A stretch of DNA of 64,000 bases from Granulosicoccus sp. (GTDB lineage: Bacteria; Pseudomonadota; Gammaproteobacteria; Granulosicoccales; Granulosicoccaceae): the NCBI GenBank assembly GCA_020627685.1, contig JAHDGK010000016.1, forward strand, positions 1 through 64,000, written 5' to 3'. The notes below the pieces were generated by a model. That model searched no databases and had not been told where the DNA came from. It was given only the letters and a program-made list of their open reading frames with translations. Position 1 is the first letter of the stretch, and each line of letters opens with the position of its first letter. The position numbers and the translations under genes are program-made. This document shows positions 9,301 to 30,969 of this stretch, in pieces.

Positions 9301-12650
<3,350 letters not shown>

Positions 12651-12663
12651 CAATGCGCGGCTA

Positions 12664-13317
12664 CTAAGGTAGCCAACTGACATCGACAACGCGCCAGCTG
12701 GGACCGCCAGCTGGCACGTCGCCGTGATAGGTGAGTCTGGTAAGTGACACATTACCGATATCAAAGCTCACACTGTTTTTGATCGGTAAATCCAGCGCAA
12801 TTTGCAAGGCCGCTAATATCGTTCCTCTGTGGGCAACGCACACTAAATCTTTTCCCGGGTGTGCGGCGCTCATACGTTGAGTGAATGATTCTACTCGGGC
12901 CCGGAGCATGGCAAAGCTTTCGCCGTTGGGTGCTTGTACTTCCGGCGAGGACGGCCAGAATCCCAAGAATGCGTCGTCTCTTATCGCAAACAGTTCCTCG
13001 TGGGTCATACCATTGTAGTCACCGAAGTCTTGTTCAAGGATGTCTGCGTCTTCCTGCCACTCGGCTGCTGTTGCTCCGGCATCTATCAACGCTTTGGCTG
13101 TCTGCTTGGTTCGCTTCAGCGGGCTGGTAATCCATAAAGCATCTTTAGGTAGCTTGGCGGCAACACCTTCGAAAACCGCGCGGTTGGAGGTGTCGCAGTC
13201 TTCATCTAGGCTGCCGTACATTTTGTACGCGCCTGCGGGTACCGGCGCATGTCGCACCCAAAAAAAGCGGGTAGCGTGAGTTCGCTGAGGGAGCCGTGCG
13301 AGCAATTCAGGTTTCAT
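12664..13317 (-). CDS. Histidine phosphatase family protein (phosphoglycerate mutase/CobC-like)
   Basis: A 217-residue cytoplasmic protein. The catalytic motif is 'WVRHAPVPAG' with Arg22 and phospho-accepting His23; a proline replaces the more usual glycine or glutamate, as in many CobC-like members. 'SPLKRTKQTAKAL' supplies the second arginine and 'CVAHRGTILAAL' the second histidine. The glutamine/aspartate-rich 'LEQDFGDYNGMTHEEL' is the usual acid-base region. The substrate is unknown: the family covers sugar phosphates, alpha-ribazole phosphate and others. It is convergent with fadA and stands alone, with no cobalamin genes nearby. Confidence 0.82.
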   Translation of the reverse strand: MKPELLARLPQRTHATRFFWVRHAPVPAGAYKMYGSLDEDCDTSNRAVFEGVAAKLPKDALWITSPLKRTKQTAKALIDAGATAAEWQEDADILEQDFGDYNGMTHEELFAIRDDAFLGFWPSSPEVQAPNGESFAMLRARVESFTQRMSAAHPGKDLVCVAHRGTILAALQIALDLPIKNSVSFDIGNVSLTRLTYHGDVPAGGPSWRVVDVSWLP

Positions 13318-13461
13318 GGAATCGTGTCAATAAGAGCCGGGATCACCAGCAGTAGAATAGTCAGCTTGTTTATTGATTCTATCCTGTTGCCGGGGATTTC
13401 GTGGAAATGAAGGAACCTGCTACATTGGAGGACTGATTCAACATGCGGGTGATGGTGTTAA

Positions 13462-14754
13462 GTGACAAGTGACAATCCTTTATCCAGTCTGGACAATCGC
13501 ATACTCGACGCCCGAGACCTACTGGTAGAGCTGACTCAGGCGCTGATTCAGGTGCCAACCCTAAACCCGCCGGGCCTGGATTACGCGGCAATCTGTGATG
13601 TACTGGAGGATTGGTTAAAACCCCATGGCTTCGATATTAAGCGTGTTCGCGCTGTCGGTGCACTTGGAGATAGCGATAAGTATCCGCGATGGAATTTAAT
13701 TGCACGTCACGAGGGACGCAATAGCGGTGAATGTGTGCATTTCAATTCGCACACGGATGTTGTATCGGTAGGGGAAGGTTGGTCGGTCGATCCCTTTGAG
13801 GGTATTGTCAAAGACGGGCGCGTGTACGGTCGTGGAGCCTGTGATATGAAAGGCGGGCTAGCTGCCTCAATGGTTGCAGCCGTCTGCTTTGTGGCAGAAC
13901 ATCCTGAATACAGCGGCTCTATTGAAATCTCTGGCACCTGTGACGAAGAGTCGGGTGGCTTTGGCGGCGTTGCCTACCTTGCGGAAAAAGGCTGGTTTGA
14001 TCCATCGCGTGTGCAGCACGTCATTATTCCGGAACCCTTAAATAAAGACCGGATTTGTCTGGGGCACCGTGGCGTACTGTGGACGGAAATTGAAACACAC
14101 GGTCACATCGCTCACGGCTCCATGCCGTTTTTAGGTGACTGCGCTGTGCGGCATATGGGGGCTGTTATTGAAGCGTTTGAAGACACGCTTATACCCCGAT
14201 TACAGCAACGCCGAACTGCAATGCCGGTTGTGCCCGATGGCGCTCGCCAGTCGACGCTGAATATTAATTCTATTCATGGCGGGCAGGAAGAGCCTGAGGA
14301 AGGCTACACGGGTTTGCCGTCTGCATTGGTGCCGGATCGCTGCCGTATGGTAGTCGACCGGCGCTTTCTCATTGAAGAAGACCTTGAAGCCGTCCGCGCC
14401 GAGCTACATGATATTCTGGAAAGTGTAAAAGAGGATCGCGACAAGTTTGATTATCGCGTACGTGAATTGTTCTCGGTTCTACCGACAATGACTGAGAGAG
14501 ATGCGCCGGTGGTTACCGCGGTTGCTGGCGCAATAAAGGCTCGACTGGGAACTGATCCGGACTATGTGGTGTCTCCGGGTACTTACGATCAAAAACATAT
14601 TGACCGGATTGGTAGGTTGCACAACTGTATTGCCTATGGGCCGGGAATACTCGATTTAGCCCATCAACCTGACGAGTATGTTGGAATTCAGGATATGATT
14701 GATTCAGCGCAAGTCATGGGGCGGTCTCTACAAACCCTATTGCTTAAAAATTAA
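13462..14754 (+). CDS. M20-family metallopeptidase (ArgE/DapE-like)
   Basis: A 430-residue zinc amidohydrolase. Ligand and catalytic blocks in order: 'HFNSHTDVVSVGEGW' (His ligand with the following Asp), 'GRGACDMKGGLA' (bridging Asp), 'CDEESGGFGG' (catalytic Glu plus ligand Glu), 'IIPEP' and a C-terminal His in 'GTYDQKH'. Such enzymes cut N-acyl amino acids or short peptides. The track start is a GTG with a weak upstream GGTGATGG and no better in-frame start follows closely. It is the first gene of the operon that encodes a peptide ABC transporter and ends with a P1 aminopeptidase, so it probably hydrolyses an imported N-acylated amino acid, opine-like compound or dipeptide (inference). Confidence 0.87.
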   Translation: MTSDNPLSSLDNRILDARDLLVELTQALIQVPTLNPPGLDYAAICDVLEDWLKPHGFDIKRVRAVGALGDSDKYPRWNLIARHEGRNSGECVHFNSHTDVVSVGEGWSVDPFEGIVKDGRVYGRGACDMKGGLAASMVAAVCFVAEHPEYSGSIEISGTCDEESGGFGGVAYLAEKGWFDPSRVQHVIIPEPLNKDRICLGHRGVLWTEIETHGHIAHGSMPFLGDCAVRHMGAVIEAFEDTLIPRLQQRRTAMPVVPDGARQSTLNINSIHGGQEEPEEGYTGLPSALVPDRCRMVVDRRFLIEEDLEAVRAELHDILESVKEDRDKFDYRVRELFSVLPTMTERDAPVVTAVAGAIKARLGTDPDYVVSPGTYDQKHIDRIGRLHNCIAYGPGILDLAHQPDEYVGIQDMIDSAQVMGRSLQTLLLKN

Positions 14755-14767
14755 CAGAGGATATGTT

Positions 14768-16246
14768 ATGAAACAACATTTATGGGTGCCAGTTTTATTA
14801 CTCACAGCAGGCTTGGCAGGAAATGCTCTAGCGGCGAAAACTGACCTAACTATCGGCATGCAGTTAGAGCCGCCTAATCTTGATCCAACCGGAGGCGCAG
14901 CCGCTGCTATTGATGAAGTGGTGTATGCCAATATCTTTGAAGGGCTCACCCGCTTTGGTCCTGACGGCAGTGTAAGACCTGCGCTGGCTGCTAGCTGGAG
15001 TATTGAGAATGACGGCACGCGTTATGTCTTCTCACTACAGTCGGGTGTGACTTTTCATGATGGCGCTGCATTCAGCTCTGAAGATGTGAAGTTCTCAATT
15101 GACCGTGCAATGGCAGAAGATTCCACCAATGCGCAAAAAGGTTTGTTTGCAAACATTGATAGTGTTGAAGTGATTGATGACAACACCGTTGCTATTAACC
15201 TTAAACAAGCTGACGGTAGTCTGTTGTTTAATTTGGCTTGGGGCGATGCCATCGTGCTAGATAGTGCGACAGCTGCAAACACCGCAACCCAGCCCGTTGG
15301 TACCGGGCCGTTTGTTTTTGATAAGTGGGTGCAGGGTGATCGCATTGAAATTGTAAAGAACGATTCCTACTGGGGTACGCCTGCGAAACTGGACAAAGCC
15401 ACGTTCAAGTTTATCAGCGAGCCAACGGCTGCCTATGCGGCAATTTTGGCGGGAGACCTTGATGCGTTTCCTAACTACCCGGCGCCTGAAAATCTTGCTC
15501 AGTTGGATGCTGATCCGCGTTATTCGGTTGTCTTAGGTTCGACCGAAGGGGAAACCATCTTGTCGACCAATAATGCTAAAGCTCCGTTTGATGATGTAAG
15601 AGTACGCAAAGCCTTGGCACACGCGATTAATCGCGGTGAGATAATTGATGGTGCCATGTTCGGCTATGGCACACCCATCGGGACTCATTTCGCGCCACAT
15701 AATCCGGCGTATGTTGATCTGGTGTCGAACTCCGCCTATGACCCCGACATGGCAAAAGCCCTATTAAAAGAAGCCGGGCATGAAGCCGGCTTGACCGTTT
15801 CTTTGAAGCTTCCCCCTCCGGCTTATGCGCGTCGTGGTGGTGAAATCATAGCGGCGCAATTACGGGATGTTGGCATTACTGCCGAGATTGAAAATTTGGA
15901 GTGGGCGCAGTGGTTAGAGCAAGTCTTCAAAGGTAAAGACTTCAATTTAACGATTGTGTCGCACACCGAGCCTATGGACATCGGTATTTACGCTAACCCG
16001 GACTACTACTTTCAGTACGACAACGCTGAGATACAAACATTGATGGAAGCCTTCGGCGTCGAAACGGATCCGGACAAGCGCACAGAGATGTTGCAACAGG
16101 CGCAGCGTATGATCTCAGACGACTATGTTAACGGATACTTATTTCAACTGGCGAAAACCGGTGTTGCTAACAGCAAAATTCAAGGTCTATGGGAGAATTC
16201 TCCAACTCAAGCGAACGATTTAACGGCCGTCTATTGGGAAGACTAA
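14768..16246 (+). CDS. Peptide/opine ABC transporter substrate-binding protein (family 5)
   Basis: A periplasmic solute-binding protein of the DppA/OppA family, 492 residues from the chosen start. ATG 14768 gives a clean signal peptide, 'MKQHLWVPVLLLTAGLAGNALA', and follows a purine-rich site; the track start at 14699 lies inside the preceding gene. The family signature is 'RPALAASWSIENDGTRYVFSL' followed by 'GVTFHDGAAFSSEDVKFS'. Its gene is 13 bases after the M20 gene. A strong terminator hairpin separates it from the permease genes, as in the TRAP operon of this window. The ligand is probably a small peptide or N-acyl amino acid. Confidence 0.91.
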   Translation: MKQHLWVPVLLLTAGLAGNALAAKTDLTIGMQLEPPNLDPTGGAAAAIDEVVYANIFEGLTRFGPDGSVRPALAASWSIENDGTRYVFSLQSGVTFHDGAAFSSEDVKFSIDRAMAEDSTNAQKGLFANIDSVEVIDDNTVAINLKQADGSLLFNLAWGDAIVLDSATAANTATQPVGTGPFVFDKWVQGDRIEIVKNDSYWGTPAKLDKATFKFISEPTAAYAAILAGDLDAFPNYPAPENLAQLDADPRYSVVLGSTEGETILSTNNAKAPFDDVRVRKALAHAINRGEIIDGAMFGYGTPIGTHFAPHNPAYVDLVSNSAYDPDMAKALLKEAGHEAGLTVSLKLPPPAYARRGGEIIAAQLRDVGITAEIENLEWAQWLEQVFKGKDFNLTIVSHTEPMDIGIYANPDYYFQYDNAEIQTLMEAFGVETDPDKRTEMLQQAQRMISDDYVNGYLFQLAKTGVANSKIQGLWENSPTQANDLTAVYWED

Positions 16247-23744: not shown

Positions 23745-25886
23745 ATGGTTTACAAACTACTGGTCTGGTCTGGCAATGTTTTCATGGCAAGCCTGTTGGT
23801 GCTGCTCGTATCTTTTCAACAGGCCAGCGCTCAGGAAACCCCCGAAACCACGGTCGAATCCAGCGGTCAGATCACCATTCCGTTGTCCGGCACGGGTACT
23901 GTAAGTACTAATTCCTCGCTGTCGATCATCCCCGGCAAAGTTGACGCCGGTTTGGTTGAAGTAGGTCAGTCATCTAACTCCACATTCGTTTTGAAAAACA
24001 CAGGTGGTGTGGGATCGCCCGCGATCTCCATCCAGGATGTCGAGTTGTTTGGTAAGAGCGCGCATGAATTCGCCACAAACTTCAATGGCTTCATTACGCT
24101 AGGCGGCGATGAGTCTCAAGAAGTGACAGTAAATTTTACGCCGCTGACTCCGGGTGACAAGGCGGCAGGTATCCGCCTGACTATCGCAGGAGCTACCACT
24201 CCTTACGTTGTTTTGTTCACCGCTAACGCACGTTACCCGCTGACATCCGATCTTTCGACCTCAATGGATAAGGTTGCGTTTGGACAAACGTTGCAAAACA
24301 GCACCGCAAAAATTAACTTTACGTTGAAGAACGATGGTGAGGCTGGCGCCCCGTCAATCAATGTATCCGCTATTCAAATCAGTGGCACTAACCCGGGTGA
24401 TTTTTCTCTGGACTTCACACCGACGACCTTGTTAGCCGGTCAGCAGATGAATGTCCAAACAACGTTGCAGACGGGCACGCTAGGTTTTAAATCAGCAGAG
24501 TTTGAAGTGTTCCACGATGGAAACAACGGTTCTCTGGAAATGGATGCTGAGGGAACTATCATCACACCTCAATCGGTTCCTGTTAATTTTACCGATAGTG
24601 TTTTAGCCACCACGCAAGAGATAACTCGAGGTACATCTATACAGTTCGGCCCTGATAATCGTTTGTATGTCTCAGAAATGGATGGATTAATTCACGTCTT
24701 CAATGTATTGCGTAATGGACCGAATAACTATTCAGCAACACTGTTTGAAACTATTGGGTTGATCAAAGCTGTACCTAATCACAATGATGATGGAACAACC
24801 GATTGGTCAGGTAAGCGACTATTAACAGGAATCCACGTGGTGGGTACTGCGGCACAGCCGGTTATCTATGCTGCCTCCAGCGATCCTCGTCAAGCAGCGG
24901 GCCCCTCGGGTAACGACTCCGGACTGGATACTAACTCAGGAATACTTCATAAGCTGACTCGCACTGGCGGTACCTGGAACATGCAGGATCTGGTTCGTGG
25001 TTTACCACGTTCAGAAGAGAATCACGTCTCCAACGGTTTGGTATTGGTGGGTAACAAAATTTATCTCAATGTTGGCGGACACACGAACCAAGGTGTACCG
25101 TCGAATAACTTTGCAGAGCTCAGCGAGTATGCGTTATCGGCGGCTACCCTGGTTATTGACCTGGCTGCAATAGGCAACACCACTTACGATTTACCCACAT
25201 TAGATGGCCCTGCTGATCAATACGATCCATTCGGAGGTCATGATGGTTTGAATCAGGCCAAACTGGTAGCGGGTGGGCCGGTACAAGTATTCGCTAGTGG
25301 TTTACGTAATGCTTACGATATCGTCTATACCGAATCGGGCCAGTTTTATGTATGGGACAACGGACCTAATAACAGTTGGGGTGGTTCGCCTAACAATACT
25401 TGCTTAAACACTATTGACAACGGTGGTAGTAACTATCCAGATGGACTGCATTTGATCAGTCAGGGGTATTACGCCGGTCATCCGAATCCTACTCGTGGTA
25501 ACAAAGCGAATACGTTCGGTGGGCAGTCGCCTGTTGAGGTTGCCGCAAACCCGGAAGAATGTACTTATAAAGTTCCTGGTCAAGGTGACGGTGCGCTGAC
25601 TACCAACACAGAATCGACTAACGGTATGGTCGAGTACACCGCGTCTAACTTTTCCGGTTCCATGAAAGGTAATTTGATAGCGGCTGCATTCGGTAAGAAG
25701 ATTTATCGTGTCGAACTTGCTAACAACGGTACGGTTGTTCAGTCTAAATCGCTTTTGAAGGACGGTCTTGGAACAGTTCCATTAGATGTAACTGCACAAG
25801 GTGATACAGATATTTTCCCAGGCACTATCTGGGTCGTGGATAACATTGCGAAAACCATCACGGTATTAGAACCCAGCGACTACTAG
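23745..25886 (+). CDS. Exported ASH-domain ('choice-of-anchor D') protein with sugar-dehydrogenase-like beta-propeller
   Basis: A 713-residue protein. A signal peptide ends at about residue 29 ('QQASA'). Two Ig-like ASH domains follow (about 60-165 and 170-275), each with the pattern 'VEVGQSSNSTFVLKNTGG' or its variant. Residues about 290-713 resemble the glucose/sorbosone dehydrogenase propeller: 'IQFGPDNRLYVSEMDGLIHVF', 'GLRNAYDIVYTESGQFYVWDNGPN' and 'GTIWVVDNIAKTITVLEP'. Some relatives bind PQQ and oxidise sugars, but I cannot confirm cofactor residues. The gene for a five-heme cytochrome follows after about 200 bases, which would suit electron transfer from the propeller (inference). The protein is probably secreted or in the periplasm. 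Confidence 0.8.
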   Translation: MVYKLLVWSGNVFMASLLVLLVSFQQASAQETPETTVESSGQITIPLSGTGTVSTNSSLSIIPGKVDAGLVEVGQSSNSTFVLKNTGGVGSPAISIQDVELFGKSAHEFATNFNGFITLGGDESQEVTVNFTPLTPGDKAAGIRLTIAGATTPYVVLFTANARYPLTSDLSTSMDKVAFGQTLQNSTAKINFTLKNDGEAGAPSINVSAIQISGTNPGDFSLDFTPTTLLAGQQMNVQTTLQTGTLGFKSAEFEVFHDGNNGSLEMDAEGTIITPQSVPVNFTDSVLATTQEITRGTSIQFGPDNRLYVSEMDGLIHVFNVLRNGPNNYSATLFETIGLIKAVPNHNDDGTTDWSGKRLLTGIHVVGTAAQPVIYAASSDPRQAAGPSGNDSGLDTNSGILHKLTRTGGTWNMQDLVRGLPRSEENHVSNGLVLVGNKIYLNVGGHTNQGVPSNNFAELSEYALSAATLVIDLAAIGNTTYDLPTLDGPADQYDPFGGHDGLNQAKLVAGGPVQVFASGLRNAYDIVYTESGQFYVWDNGPNNSWGGSPNNTCLNTIDNGGSNYPDGLHLISQGYYAGHPNPTRGNKANTFGGQSPVEVAANPEECTYKVPGQGDGALTTNTESTNGMVEYTASNFSGSMKGNLIAAAFGKKIYRVELANNGTVVQSKSLLKDGLGTVPLDVTAQGDTDIFPGTIWVVDNIAKTITVLEPSDY

Positions 25887-26091
25887 AGGGTGAACCTAGC
25901 ATCAGTGTTGAACGTAACGCCACACTACTGGCTGAACTAGCTTAGTAACCATTTGTCCACTGCCCGATTGTTAGTTTTACTTAACTGCAAGTGACTTCAG
26001 GCCGTTACGAACACAATGATGAGGTGTTTTGTATCTTCCGTTTCCTCATTCAATAAATAACAACGGGTTTTGTAATAAATAACAAGATCCG

Positions 26092-27906
26092 ATGCTGAGC
26101 TTAGTTATGGAATTTACTAGAACGTTAACTGCTAGAACCCGCGTTGGCCTAATGTTGGCTTTCATAACGCTACTGAGTGCGTGCGGCGGTGGCGGTGGTG
26201 ACTCGAGTGGTGTTAACGTATTGACCATTGGTGGTTCTCCACGAGGAACCCAGCCTGACATTGCACGAGCAGATGCAACGTTTGAAGGTACGCATCACGC
26301 AGGAAGCGACTCCTGTACCTCTTGCCATAACGATTCCTCCATGACGATTAGTACACCGGTTCCCGGTGTTACACGCAACGTCTCTATCGGCACTGCCTGG
26401 GAAACCAGCGTGATGGCTAATTCGGCGCGTGACCCCTACTGGCATGCAGTAGTTGCGTCTGAGTTACATCAATTCCCCATGTTGGAAGATACGATTAACG
26501 ATAAGTGCACGGTTTGTCATGCGCCTATGGCTAACGACTTTGCTAAAAAGGAAGGTTTAGATTTACGTTTGTTCGATAAGAGCACGGTCGGCGCAATAGA
26601 CTACCAGCCGGGTATCTATTCCATGAACGAAGAGAACGAACTGTTCAATCATGCGATGGACGGTGTTAGCTGCTCTTTGTGTCACCAAATGGAAGACGTC
26701 AATTTTGGTAACGATGAAAGCATGACCGGAGGCTATACGATTTTAGGCTCACCAACGGGTGATGTCGCTGACCGACCTGCTTATGGTCAATACACGGATC
26801 CTGATGTGGGTTACATGCGTCAGCAAGCAGGCTTCTTACCGCAATACGGACCGCATCTAAGTACCTCTGAAAGTTGTGCAACGTGCCATAACCTAAATTT
26901 ACAACCGGTCAACTCAAACGGTGAAACTGTTGAAGGTGTTGATCATTTTGCTGAGCAGGCGATCTACACCGAATGGTTGAAGAGTGACTATGCGATTGGC
27001 GGACCTAAGGAGGCCTCTTGCCAGGATTGTCATATGCCAGTGGTCGATGAAGAGGTTTACATTGGACAAGGCGCTCCTGAAAAGCGTGAAGATTTCGCAG
27101 AGCATGTCTTCCTCGGTGCGAACACCGTTATGCAGGACATGTTCAAAAACTTTTCAGACCAGCTGGGTATCAAGCCGGGCTTGGACTTCGATGGCGCTAT
27201 TGCCAGGAACCGTGAGTTCCTGACAACATCTGCCGATGTCACGATCTCACAAGGTGCTGTCAGCGACGGAACTTTAAGTTTTGATGTGAACATTCAAAAC
27301 AACACCGGGCACAAGCTTCCGGGTGGCTATCATTCACGACGCGTTTACTTGCATGTTCAGGTGATTGATTCGAGCGGACAGCAGGTTTTCGAAAGCGGTC
27401 GTATCAATGCGAACGGCAGCATCGTGGGTGTATCTGAAGACAGCAGCCCTGCATCCTGGGAGCAGCACTATGACGTTATAACGTCGCCGACTCAGGTTCA
27501 GGTTTATCAGTCAATCGTCGGTGATATCAACGGTGACCGGACGCATTCACTGCTCGATGGTAGCCAATACTTGAAGGACAACCGCTTACTGCCGTCAGGT
27601 TTCAATCGATTCACTATTCAGAATGACCCATCGCTTCCTGATAGTTTCGGGACGTTTGGCAAGGCGCTTGAAGACCCTGACTTTCTGGGTGGCGGCGATA
27701 CGGTCACCTACCGTATCCCAGTCGATATCGCAGGTTCTTATACGGTATCCGCCGAACTTCGTTACCAGCCGTTTAGTTTTGGACACCTGAAACAATTATT
27801 CACAGAGGGCTCTGAGATCGAGCAGGTGGATATGTTCCGTACTATCTATGATGCGACTACGCTGCGGGATGAGGTTATCGATACGGCAACCGAAACCATC
27901 CAGTAG
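26092..27906 (+). CDS. Five-heme c-type cytochrome lipoprotein
   Basis: A 604-residue protein. A lipoprotein signal ends 'FITLLSACGGGG' with lipidated Cys31. Five CxxCH heme sites follow at about residues 75 (CTSCH), 139 (CTVCH), 194 (CSLCH), 262 (CATCH) and 310 (CQDCH). The C-terminal half is heme-free and beta-rich, with 'NNTGHKLPGGYHSRRVYLHV', a block common in multiheme cytochromes of the cytochrome c554-like group. It would be anchored to a membrane on the periplasmic or outer side and move electrons. The start may be Met6 (26107) rather than 26092; both keep the lipobox. No other respiratory genes are adjacent. Confidence 0.85.
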   Translation: MLSLVMEFTRTLTARTRVGLMLAFITLLSACGGGGGDSSGVNVLTIGGSPRGTQPDIARADATFEGTHHAGSDSCTSCHNDSSMTISTPVPGVTRNVSIGTAWETSVMANSARDPYWHAVVASELHQFPMLEDTINDKCTVCHAPMANDFAKKEGLDLRLFDKSTVGAIDYQPGIYSMNEENELFNHAMDGVSCSLCHQMEDVNFGNDESMTGGYTILGSPTGDVADRPAYGQYTDPDVGYMRQQAGFLPQYGPHLSTSESCATCHNLNLQPVNSNGETVEGVDHFAEQAIYTEWLKSDYAIGGPKEASCQDCHMPVVDEEVYIGQGAPEKREDFAEHVFLGANTVMQDMFKNFSDQLGIKPGLDFDGAIARNREFLTTSADVTISQGAVSDGTLSFDVNIQNNTGHKLPGGYHSRRVYLHVQVIDSSGQQVFESGRINANGSIVGVSEDSSPASWEQHYDVITSPTQVQVYQSIVGDINGDRTHSLLDGSQYLKDNRLLPSGFNRFTIQNDPSLPDSFGTFGKALEDPDFLGGGDTVTYRIPVDIAGSYTVSAELRYQPFSFGHLKQLFTEGSEIEQVDMFRTIYDATTLRDEVIDTATETIQ

Positions 27907-28041: not shown

Positions 28042-28629
28042 ATGCCAGTTAGATTTTCCTCAGCTCTGCGTCAATTGCTGACACTCGGTGCTTTGCTCTC
28101 TGTTCTGTTGATGCTGCCCGCAGCCTCGCACGCGCAAAGCTCAGGGCTTGAGTATCGTATCGGGCCTGAAGATGTCCTACACATCTCCGTATGGAAAGAG
28201 GAAGATCTGGATCGTAAAGTTCTGGTTCGCCCTGATGGCGGTGTGTCTTTCCCGCTAGCAGGTGATATTCAGGTATCCGGCAGAACCCCTTTGGAAGTTC
28301 AAGACGAGATCCGCTCCAGGCTCCAGCGTTACGTTCCCGATGCAGAAGTTACCGTCTCGGTAGACAAAATTTCGGGTTACACCATTTTCGTTCTGGGTGA
28401 GGTCAAAGAGCCTGGCCAATTCACGCTCGGCCGATACGTAGATGTCGTACAGGCACTCACACTGGCTGGTGGATTCACCCCATATGCGAATAGCCGAGAT
28501 ATTCAGGTTCTGCGCCGACAAGATGGCCGCGAAGTCACGTTCGCATTCGATTTTCGCTCGATATCCCGTGGGCGAAATTTACAACAGAATATAATCCTGC
28601 AAAGCGGTGACGTTGTCCTCGTTCCTTGA
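28042..28629 (+). CDS. Wza-like polysaccharide export protein (short form)
   Basis: A 195-residue exported protein. The signal peptide ends 'AASHAQ'. Next comes the Poly_export domain, 'YRIGPEDVLHISVWKEEDLDRKVLVRPDG' and 'FPLAGDIQVSGRT', then one SLBB domain, 'FVLGEVKEPGQFTLG'. There is no lipobox, and it is about half the length of Wza, like the periplasmic export proteins of XrtA-type exopolysaccharide loci. The AGGAG site at 28029 supports the start. The only linked gene is the putative outer-membrane protein 14 bases downstream; no glycosyltransferase, chain-length regulator or exosortase is present in the window. Confidence 0.88.
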   Translation: MPVRFSSALRQLLTLGALLSVLLMLPAASHAQSSGLEYRIGPEDVLHISVWKEEDLDRKVLVRPDGGVSFPLAGDIQVSGRTPLEVQDEIRSRLQRYVPDAEVTVSVDKISGYTIFVLGEVKEPGQFTLGRYVDVVQALTLAGGFTPYANSRDIQVLRRQDGREVTFAFDFRSISRGRNLQQNIILQSGDVVLVP

Positions 28630-28643
28630 TGGGAGGGGAGAAA

Positions 28644-30137
28644 ATGAAAAAAAGTCTTCTATGCCGATCATTGCTGGCTGCATGTACGTTTACAGTCGCG
28701 CCGGCGTTTGCAGATGTGTGGGTCTTCGAGCCTTCAATTACGCTCGATCAACGCTTCGACGACAACTACTTTTTAGAGCCTTCAGGCGACGGTGAGCTTA
28801 GCGCCACACGTGCCGTCGGTGAGCTTGGCTTAAGTCGTGAATCGGAAGCTGCCAACATCAAAGGCCTAGTGCGAGTCGATGCACTTTTAACCACTCAATC
28901 CGACTCAGGTGAAGAAGGGCTGGAGTCTAATCAGCTTGTTGCGTTTGATGCCAAGCGGCGTTCAGCTAGAAGCCGCTACGGTATCTTTGTAAGCTTTAAA
29001 CAAGATACGCCGAGTCGAGATATTGCTGCCGATTTAAGCGATCCGGATAGTCTTGCCAGCGATACCGGCTTAAATCCGAGCCAGTCCAGTAACGTTGCTC
29101 GTCAGGAAGTTACGTTTAAACCCAACTACAGCTACGATATAACTCGAAGGCTCGAATTTAATACCAACGCGACGTTTACATTTGTCGATCACGAGCTTCC
29201 TGACCCTCAAGACGCCATTTATCAGCGCTATTACAGTCTGCTTCCCAGAGATGATAGCGGCAATATTATTGGTCCCATCCTGCCGTATAACGAAGTCACC
29301 ATTGCCGATGCGGGGAATGTGTTTAGCCCTGTAGGTGAGCTGGATGATTTTGAAGAAAGTAAATTCGAATTTGGTCTGCGGTATAAATACACCCCTATCT
29401 CGACCCTGTCGGCGACACTTGCGTACAGCAAATTCAATGCGCAGGTTTTAATTGATCCTTTTGCGATTGTTCCTTTCGAAGATCTGGCGGCTGATCCTGA
29501 TGAACCGGGAATACGTCGTCGTCCGCGTCGCGATTCCATCTCAACAACCACAGCGCTTTCATTAGGGTATGAGCGTTTGCTAACTCCCACTGTGTTGTTA
29601 AGTGCCTCGGCTGGTATTTACGTTAACAATGCCGATACCACGGACACGCTCAGAGCGGAAGATCGACCCGGTGAGGAAATTCCCGCTGAACGTCTTGAAG
29701 CTTTAGAAAGTGAAAACGATGGTTGGTTGGCCAGTGTACTGTTATCACACAATGCGGGCCTGACTCGATACGTCGCTAAGTTCGCTGTCGATGTGCAGCC
29801 CAGCAGTTCCGGTACACAGGTAGAAACTCAAGAACTCACAGGCGATGTATTCCGCACATTATCACCTCGTTTAAATGTTTCCCTGCGCACCAGAGCCTAC
29901 GAGCCCGACCGTTTAGGTGCTAATGTTGAAGACGAATTCGCTCGTCGTTTCATTAGCATTGAGCCTAAGGTTGAATGGAAATATGCAAGGAATTGGACGG
30001 CGTCAGCTGCTTATCGTTATCGTCGCCAGAAAGCTCGCATAGACCCGGTATCAGCTGAAAGCAATGCGATCCTGCTATCAGTTAAATACACACCGCCATC
30101 AAAGATTCGAGACGCGGCTAACGCCAACGGGCTTTAA
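28644..30137 (+). CDS. Putative outer-membrane beta-barrel protein paired with the export protein
   Basis: About 497 residues from ATG 28644, which follows a strong GGAGGGGAG; the track start (TTG 28626) lies inside that site. The signal peptide is 'MKKSLLCRSLLAACTFTVAPAFA'. The mature part opens 'VFEPSITLDQRFDDNYFLEP' and then alternates hydrophobic and polar residues with many Tyr and Arg, as in 'SKFEFGLRYKYTPISTLSATLAYSKF' and 'NWTASAAYRYRRQKARI'. This looks like the outer-membrane barrels found beside exopolysaccharide export genes, including the PEP-CTERM/XrtA-associated barrel. It could form the outer-membrane exit for the polymer (inference). Confidence 0.72.
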   Translation: MKKSLLCRSLLAACTFTVAPAFADVWVFEPSITLDQRFDDNYFLEPSGDGELSATRAVGELGLSRESEAANIKGLVRVDALLTTQSDSGEEGLESNQLVAFDAKRRSARSRYGIFVSFKQDTPSRDIAADLSDPDSLASDTGLNPSQSSNVARQEVTFKPNYSYDITRRLEFNTNATFTFVDHELPDPQDAIYQRYYSLLPRDDSGNIIGPILPYNEVTIADAGNVFSPVGELDDFEESKFEFGLRYKYTPISTLSATLAYSKFNAQVLIDPFAIVPFEDLAADPDEPGIRRRPRRDSISTTTALSLGYERLLTPTVLLSASAGIYVNNADTTDTLRAEDRPGEEIPAERLEALESENDGWLASVLLSHNAGLTRYVAKFAVDVQPSSSGTQVETQELTGDVFRTLSPRLNVSLRTRAYEPDRLGANVEDEFARRFISIEPKVEWKYARNWTASAAYRYRRQKARIDPVSAESNAILLSVKYTPPSKIRDAANANGL

Positions 30138-30141
30138 GCTT

Positions 30142-30969
30142 CTAGCTCTCTTCGTTTTCAGCGACAACCGGAGATTCGTCCGGTTTGTCCTCTTTCTCGA
30201 TCGGAACGAAATCCAAGATACGCTTGTTGTCTGGATCAAAAACCGCAACTCCGTCGGCATATCGCGCTTTGAATTTGTAAAGTTCGACATCGTCAAGGTT
30301 AAGTGATTTTCGCTTCAGCGCAGCCGTAACGACATCCGCAGCGCCCATGTCGTTTAGCGTGGCAATATCCAATGCATCCTTTTGCATGGAATCGTGGTTG
30401 CTATCCAGGCTGACGTATTGATCGCTTCTTCGCTGCGGTCCCGGGTAGCCGTTGAATATTTCGTTTAAGTGCTCTGCGTATTTACCGGGCGCTGGTGCAG
30501 GCGTTAATAACAGCGGTACATTGAGCAGAGTGACTGCTGGTATAGGCTGTGGGTCGATATCCAGCTGACGCAGTTGAGCATTAGCTTCTAAGTTGTCTTG
30601 TGCCGATACGGTGTTAAATCCTCGCTCTGCGTATACCAGAGCCACGGTGCGTTGTTGATAGGTTGTGTAAAAGCCATACCCCAAGGCTGCGATTTGAATA
30701 ACCGCAATGAGCGACATATCAAGCACCAGCTTCGGTTTGCCGGGCTTGTACAGCAATAGGGTCAGGGCAGGGCCTAACACTAGATCTACCATGGCAACCA
30801 GTTTCAATCCTTGCCAACCGCCATCGATGAAAAACAGCTCACCGGGAAACCAGTAAAGCACCATCATAAAAACCAAGGATGAAAAGATGAGCAGACTTAG
30901 AGCGAGATGGATTGAGAATGCAGCCCCCTTAGATGGGCTGAAATTCGACCAGGAAGCAGCGACCTGCAC
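30142..30969 (-). CDS. TfpX/TfpZ-family type IV pilin accessory protein
   Basis: A 275-residue inner-membrane protein with three to four N-terminal helices and a periplasmic C-terminal part. Family features: 'WSNFSPSKGAAFSIHLALSLLIF', 'DGGWQGLKLVAMVDLVLGPALTLLLYKPGK' and 'LIAVIQIAALGYGFYTTYQQRTVALVYAE'. In Pseudomonas such proteins help assemble or stabilise particular PilA pilins and are encoded next to pilA. No pilin gene is visible here. It ends four bases after the convergent barrel gene. The acidic tail ('EKEDKPDESPVVAENEES') is unusual-looking but of unknown meaning. Confidence 0.86.
   Translation of the reverse strand: MQVAASWSNFSPSKGAAFSIHLALSLLIFSSLVFMMVLYWFPGELFFIDGGWQGLKLVAMVDLVLGPALTLLLYKPGKPKLVLDMSLIAVIQIAALGYGFYTTYQQRTVALVYAERGFNTVSAQDNLEANAQLRQLDIDPQPIPAVTLLNVPLLLTPAPAPGKYAEHLNEIFNGYPGPQRRSDQYVSLDSNHDSMQKDALDIATLNDMGAADVVTAALKRKSLNLDDVELYKFKARYADGVAVFDPDNKRILDFVPIEKEDKPDESPVVAENEES

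Follow-up and report, generated by a model that had tools for sequence, protein, structure and literature searches.

A conserved pair of genes for an ASH-propeller protein and a pentaheme cytochrome lipoprotein in Granulosicoccaceae, probably a sugar-oxidising electron-transfer unit

The principle of joining a dehydrogenase to a heme module is already known from the fungal AA12-AA8 enzymes (PMC6881789). Propellers of the sGDH/AA12 type carry a catalytic histidine (His144/His363) and an arginine-asparagine pair (Arg430/Asn431) that contacts the cofactor pyrroloquinoline quinone (PQQ) (PMC6881789), and Gly247/Pro248 form the Gly-Pro of the Ca2+ site in sGDH-type enzymes (PMC6881810). Among multiheme proteins, the pentaheme cytochrome c552 of Thermochromatium tepidum has been grouped with ExtKL, GSU2801 and pentaheme cytochromes of cable bacteria (PHC), a family that has an immunoglobulin (Ig)-like domain and for which a relation to archaeal cytochrome nanowires has been proposed (PMC11976967 and work cited there). 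Described here are two neighbouring genes, at positions 23,745 to 27,906 of a 64,000-nucleotide stretch of Granulosicoccus sp. DNA (the window; contig JAHDGK010000016.1, assembly GCA_020627685.1), which encode an exported protein with ASH and beta-propeller domains and a pentaheme cytochrome lipoprotein. Together, they probably form a sugar-oxidising electron-transfer unit.

The source genome is that of a Granulosicoccus (4.93 Mb, 99.5% complete), with Granulosicoccus and Granulosicoccaceae as its named relatives. An earlier, sequence-only reading of the window had placed an exported ASH/propeller open reading frame (ORF) and a five-heme lipoprotein ORF at this site, and the ORFs, domain matches and motifs bear this out. 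Both ORFs are read from the + strand; 205 nt separate the stop codon of the propeller ORF from the start codon of the cytochrome ORF, and Rfam and terminator scans of this intergenic region gave no match.

23745..25886, + strand: exported ASH-propeller protein, 713 aa, a putative quinoprotein-type dehydrogenase (ORF, two choice_anch_D domains, weak GSDH match, family alignment, AA12 fold match)
26092..27906, + strand: pentaheme c-type cytochrome lipoprotein, 604 aa (ORF, alignment, PHC/c552 relation)

Protein searches over 48 Granulosicoccaceae genomes, 28 of which were rated high-quality, recovered the cytochrome in 46 (in G011 as weak fragments only) and the propeller or a paralog in 44. In 38 of the 48, a propeller gene immediately precedes the cytochrome gene in the same orientation, with gaps that are mostly 91–450 nt. 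Both genes are present but apart in four genomes (G016, G029, G030 and G038); one has the cytochrome plus only a long propeller paralog located elsewhere (G022), two have the cytochrome without a propeller (G014 and G018), one has the long paralog only (G003), and two, at 77% and 87% completeness, are without the pair (G011 and G017, respectively). The co-occurrence in other genomes on which the sequence-only reading had staked the pairing is thus found throughout the family.

Fusions and paralogs extend this association beyond the pair. In three genera of another gammaproteobacterial family, GSDH is fused to the pentaheme cytochrome in single ORFs of 1125–1192 aa, where the GSDH part scores 123–141 bits against PF07995 (cut-off 25) and F5/8-type-C or PKD domains act as joiners. 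One 2329-aa ORF on a contig of a metagenome-assembled genome (L101) contains choice_anch_D, malectin, the pentaheme cytochrome, a second malectin, PKD/PA14/TIG and a propeller (TIGR03606, 39.5 bits), uniting all modules of the window pair in a single chain. Several Granulosicoccus genomes (L102, L104, L111 and L135) have a further copy of the cytochrome gene that is immediately preceded by a canonical GSDH gene, and the two of these GSDH genes that were checked score 121 bits (L104) and 110 bits (L111) against PF07995. A quick maximum-likelihood tree built from 90 cytochromes places all the propeller-linked ones in one clade of 54 (SH-aLRT 98); those outside the clade, from Methylococcaceae, Myxococcota and other groups, have no neighbouring propeller. 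The cytochrome is therefore a general module, of which one clade is wired to GSDH-type propellers, with the partner type changing inside that clade. Chance juxtaposition of the two genes is ruled out by their adjacency and by the fusions, and a functional link between propeller and cytochrome is well supported by the conserved adjacency, the fusions and the GSDH-flanked paralogs.

The first protein consists of a signal peptide, two Ig-like domains and a propeller that carries three candidate active-site motifs:

23745..23831, + strand: Sec-type signal peptide, residues 1-29, cleavage near ASA/QE by eye (sequence; hydrophobic helix 2-27 in the model)
23937..24560, + strand: two Ig-like ASH/choice-of-anchor-D domains, residues about 65-272 (NF012200, PF22544, beta sandwiches in the model)
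24573..25883, + strand: beta-propeller domain, residues 277-713, of divergent GSDH/AA12 type (weak PF07995, hhalign against canonical GSDH, Foldseek AA12)
25023..25025, + strand: His427 (SEENH motif), aligned with the catalytic His of GSDH/sGDH (invariant; hhalign)
25305..25310, + strand: Arg521-Asn522 (GxRN), aligned with the PQQ-contacting Arg-Asn (invariant; alignments)
25362..25367, + strand: Gly540-Pro541 (DNGPN), aligned with the Gly-Pro catalytic Ca2+ loop of sGDH-type enzymes (alignment to EHGP of 2ISM)

NF012200 matches this ORF over two stretches (72.7 bits, cut-off 45) and PF22544 at 38.8 bits (cut-off 25.5). The AlphaFold2 model of the protein, built from 17 sequences (pLDDT 75), is good over the Ig domains, whose beta sandwiches reach pLDDT of about 85–93, and over the propeller core. 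After matches to the Ig domains, the best Foldseek match is the PQQ-dependent AA12 dehydrogenase of Trichoderma reesei (6h7t/6i1t/6i1q; E 9e-10 to 2e-9, TMt 0.57–0.60). Single-sequence phmmer searches of the PDB gave nothing useful, and profiles had to be used instead. PF07995 reaches E<=0.01 in 11 of 17 relatives of the window propeller (best E 7.9e-9), and an hhalign comparison of the propeller family with canonical GSDH paralogs (E 7e-7, probability 92%) pairs SEENH427 with the catalytic His motif and GLR521N522 with GLRN, and extends through the next blade. H427, R521-N522 and G540-P541 are all invariant in the family alignment of 17 sequences. The DNGP loop, modelled with low confidence, pairs with EHGP of 2ISM; the Ser/Asp Ca2+ ligands of AA12 were not identified in the propeller, and no counterpart of the AA12 His pair could be assigned there. 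Judged by its fold and by the aligned His and Arg-Asn positions, the window propeller is a divergent GSDH/AA12 relative that scores beneath the curated family threshold.

The second protein is a lipoprotein with five heme motifs followed by a beta domain:

26173..26184, + strand: lipobox LSAC (residues 28-31), Cys31, then Gly (sequence; ACGGG kept in most relatives)
26314..26328, + strand: heme motif 1, CTSCH (75-79), invariant
26506..26520, + strand: heme motif 2, CTVCH (139-143), invariant
26671..26685, + strand: heme motif 3, CSLCH (194-198), invariant
26875..26889, + strand: heme motif 4, CATCH (262-266), invariant
27019..27033, + strand: heme motif 5, CQDCH (310-314), invariant
27124..27903, + strand: heme-free C-terminal beta domain, residues about 345-604, with His407 (GHKLP loop) and His459 (strands in the model; matches to 5ze8 and MccSep)

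Because glycine follows the lipobox Cys31, sorting to the outer membrane is expected. The five CxxCH motifs are invariant in 18 family members and 88 wider relatives and so are not chance motifs; the C-terminal roughly 290 residues hold no CxxCH, and a cytochrome maturation gene is present. Four histidines outside these motifs (255, 338, 407 and 459, the last two within the beta domain) are invariant in all 88 relatives, and His187 is kept in 51 of the 54 members of the propeller clade versus 7 of 34 cytochromes outside it. A profile of the 18 members matches T. tepidum c552 (5ze8) at E 1.7e-5. The order of the five heme motifs and of the C-terminal H-x-(L/M)-P-x-G segment is shared, residues 369-425 falling on 284-339 of 5ze8; MccSep structures are matched more weakly. 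In the cytochrome model, the beta-domain strands have high confidence and the heme region low confidence (pLDDT about 30–40 over hemes 3–5), and 5ze8 is the sole Foldseek match better than 0.001 (E 5e-10). The collinearity with this relative of PHC and ExtKL explains the C-terminal domain. It had been read as a large beta domain of unknown role, but its counterpart is the C-terminal Ig-like domain found in c552/PHC/ExtKL cytochromes. With its two invariant histidines, it probably caps the heme core and supplies axial His ligands.

Several named families were considered and rejected: the NrfA nitrite reductases (all motifs are CxxCH, with no CxxCK; PF02335 E 0.09, below the cut-off), ExtKL (NF040886, 27.5 bits versus a cut-off of 250), the MccSep selenoproteins (Tyr413 stands at the Sec/Cys loop position), the decaheme MtrC/OmcA family (five hemes rather than ten; TIGR03507, 20.7 versus 209 bits) and the PVC-type CxxCH proteins (TIGR02604, 16.5 bits versus a cut-off of 122). 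The model of the MtrB/PioB conduit (TIGR03509) matched nothing in the 48 genomes, and since no control genome was matched either, this does not show absence. Methylococcaceae relatives of the cytochrome (L117:9041-11617) have, at the N-terminus, three TPDAFxF repeat domains that match nothing in Pfam.

The analysis establishes the gene structure, the conserved pairing, the fusions, the conserved motifs and the fold-level relations; catalysis, PQQ, direct electron transfer, the direction of electron flow and the compartment are inferred. The reading that we favour, with moderate confidence, is a two-component quinohemoprotein dehydrogenase at the interface of outer membrane and periplasm. The ASH-propeller protein would oxidise a sugar or another alcohol at a site in the centre of the propeller, most likely with PQQ and Ca2+, while its Ig-like ASH domains would serve as spacer or binding modules. 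The two electrons would be passed singly to the pentaheme lipoprotein, anchored in the outer membrane with its heme domain under the beta-domain cap, and would continue either to a cell-surface acceptor or to soluble c-type cytochromes and on into aerobic respiration. Granulosicoccus bacteria are associated with kelp and seawater. Kelp supports large numbers of these aerobic heterotrophs (PMC9238374), so algal sugars are plausible substrates.

A number of observations weigh against such a dehydrogenase. The window propeller scores 20.6 bits against PF07995 (E 3e-4), under the Pfam cut-off of 25; the loops around its putative pocket are modelled with low confidence, and no equivalent of Lys377 or of the C-terminal Arg of sGDH was located. 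Of the 48 family genomes, only 27 have the PQQ biosynthesis gene pqqC, among them 12 of the 28 high-quality ones; the pair is encoded in nearly all of the 21 that lack it, several of which are more than 95% complete. Many close relatives of the cytochrome stand without a propeller, and the gap seen in most genomes makes a shared operon uncertain, although no terminator-like site was found in it.

The occurrence of the pair in genomes without pqqC and the low GSDH score would also suit a propeller that is linked to the cytochrome yet non-catalytic, a cofactor-free module that binds or scaffolds and docks the cytochrome to a polysaccharide or to an outer-membrane complex. PQQ-free GSDH folds are known, as in hedgehog-interacting protein, chains of which are matched by the GSDH paralog, and the fusions hold Ig-like and carbohydrate-binding modules. 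However, the catalytic-type His, Arg-Asn and Gly-Pro are unchanged across the 17 divergent sequences, including those from pqqC-less genomes (e.g., G021, G033 and G026), and the partner propellers of the fusions and paralogs are canonical GSDH. A non-catalytic propeller is a doubtful explanation, albeit one to be taken seriously.

For a catalytic propeller, PQQ is the likely cofactor, as far as the motifs indicate. The source genome has pqqB, pqqC, pqqD and pqqE, but pqqC does not track the pair, so that co-occurrence neither proves nor excludes PQQ; genomes lacking pqqC may use external PQQ, a different cofactor or none. External PQQ is used by Asd of Escherichia coli. On contig C95 of the source genome (L147:6490-9667 and 11171-14959), a long ASH-propeller paralog of >1260 aa neighbours pqqB, C, D and E, and in two other genomes (G043 and G044) pqqC and the long paralog share one contig, an arrangement that suggests that the long paralog is a PQQ enzyme. 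The source genome also encodes a second full-length ASH-propeller of 750 aa, 57% identical, on a short contig that holds no cytochrome (C71; L148:785-3037), and ASH-propeller paralogs of 1940–2275 aa (L150:2727-9554 and L153:6899-12721) also match models of the YjhT mutarotase (Kelch).

A different division of labour, in which the cytochrome is itself the oxidoreductase (NrfA-, ExtKL- or MccSep-like) and the propeller its donor or accessory, with net reduction of an external acceptor such as an oxidised nitrogen or sulfur species, is unlikely. Relatives of the cytochrome do include MccSep and ExtKL-type proteins. Besides the four invariant histidines outside the CxxCH motifs there is a possible fifth ligand, His187, whose variation beyond the propeller clade could leave a heme open in certain members. 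Within the clade, however, His187 is kept almost throughout, and the uniform CxxCH motifs, the tyrosine at the Sec/Cys position and the ExtKL score, far beneath its threshold, all speak against an enzyme of these types.

Downstream of the pair lie two further genes:

28042..30137, + strand: Wza-like polysaccharide export protein and beta-barrel outer-membrane protein, context (synteny in three genera sampled)

The Wza-like gene stands alone with a TIGR03016-like beta-barrel, no further polysaccharide genes being present among the neighbours examined, and a TfpX/TfpZ-family type IV pilin accessory gene follows on the - strand (30142-30969; 137 bits, cut-off 200). Genus g1 and g3/g4 keep a block made up of a small secreted protein, the Wza-like export protein, the beta-barrel, TfpX/Z and argF. 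In the g5 lineage, the pair is still together with none of its block neighbours (Wza, barrel, TfpZ or argF), which identifies the pair, and not the neighbourhood, as the conserved unit. That the two genes share only regulation or a role in surface-polysaccharide biology, with no direct electron transfer between the proteins, is quite improbable: the export and barrel genes 3' of the pair in g1, g3 and g4 and the four genomes in which the genes lie apart would fit, but both domain types are fused in unrelated genomes and the pair is kept where polysaccharide genes are absent. Where the propeller has been lost (L090:11913-17136 and L091:11704-16143), large proteins with CBM10, CBM35-like, DUF11 and GH115_C domains are found 3' of the cytochrome.

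The earlier interpretation of the locus as an oxidation module of propeller and pentaheme cytochrome is partly supported. Neither of the two findings named as refuting it was made: the pair co-occurs across the family, and the propeller keeps invariant residues that align with the catalytic-type motifs of sugar dehydrogenases, together with an AA12-like fold. PQQ use stays unproven, given the patchy distribution of pqqC and the poorly modelled pocket loops, and the cytochrome is not exclusive to the module.

The open-access literature searched yielded no account of a GSDH/AA12-type propeller partnered by a multiheme cytochrome, or of a pentaheme/propeller system. Most PHC/c552-type pentaheme cytochromes have no known partner. 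For one branch, the conserved pair and the fusions would supply a definite electron donor, and they open the heme-free beta domain to testing. Nearly every genome of a family that includes dominant kelp-surface bacteria (PMC9238374) carries the pair. Very tentatively, the locus may represent a class, not named before, of multiheme quinohemoprotein dehydrogenases at the outer membrane, possibly surface-facing, in which an AA12-like oxidiser of sugars or polysaccharide ends is combined with a pentaheme c552/PHC-type lipoprotein related to nanowire-type cytochromes. In that case, algal sugars would be oxidised outside the cytoplasm, and their electrons would reach the envelope with no need to import the sugar.

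Among described cytochromes and fusions, MtrC/OmcA resemble the window cytochrome as outer-membrane lipoproteins with a pentaheme segment and a beta domain, to which it also has a weak PF22113 match, but they carry ten hemes where it has five, and no significant fold match was obtained. The PVC-type CxxCH proteins (TIGR02604) and other fusions of GSDH to a monoheme domain likewise combine a GSDH-like propeller with c-type heme; PVC-type proteins have one heme and HEAT repeats, whereas the window has five hemes in a PHC fold. The c552/PHC cytochromes, including ExtKL and GSU2801, share the order of the five heme motifs and the C-terminal Ig-like domain with its H-x-(L/M)-P-x-G loop, and differ in that the window cytochrome is longer, is a lipoprotein, lies far under the ExtKL equivalog cut-off and is paired with a dehydrogenase-like propeller. 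On the propeller side, sGDH and the aldose sugar dehydrogenases (Asd, PF07995; 1CQ1, 2G8S and 2ISM) have the same fold, His, GxRN and Gly-Pro, although the similarity is at profile level only, the window protein staying below the PF07995 cut-off and adding two ASH domains and a dedicated multiheme partner. The fungal AA12-AA8 enzymes (Coprinopsis cinerea CcPDH and T. reesei TrAA12) combine a GSDH-type propeller bearing the His/Arg-Asn motif with Ig-like folds and a heme electron-transfer module. They do so in one chain with one heme b, and the Gly-Pro loop of the window propeller resembles that of sGDH rather than the Ser/Asp Ca2+ site of AA12. The Granulosicoccus pair, with its separate pentaheme c-type lipoprotein, would thus extend this wiring of dehydrogenase to cytochrome to a bacterial, multiheme form.

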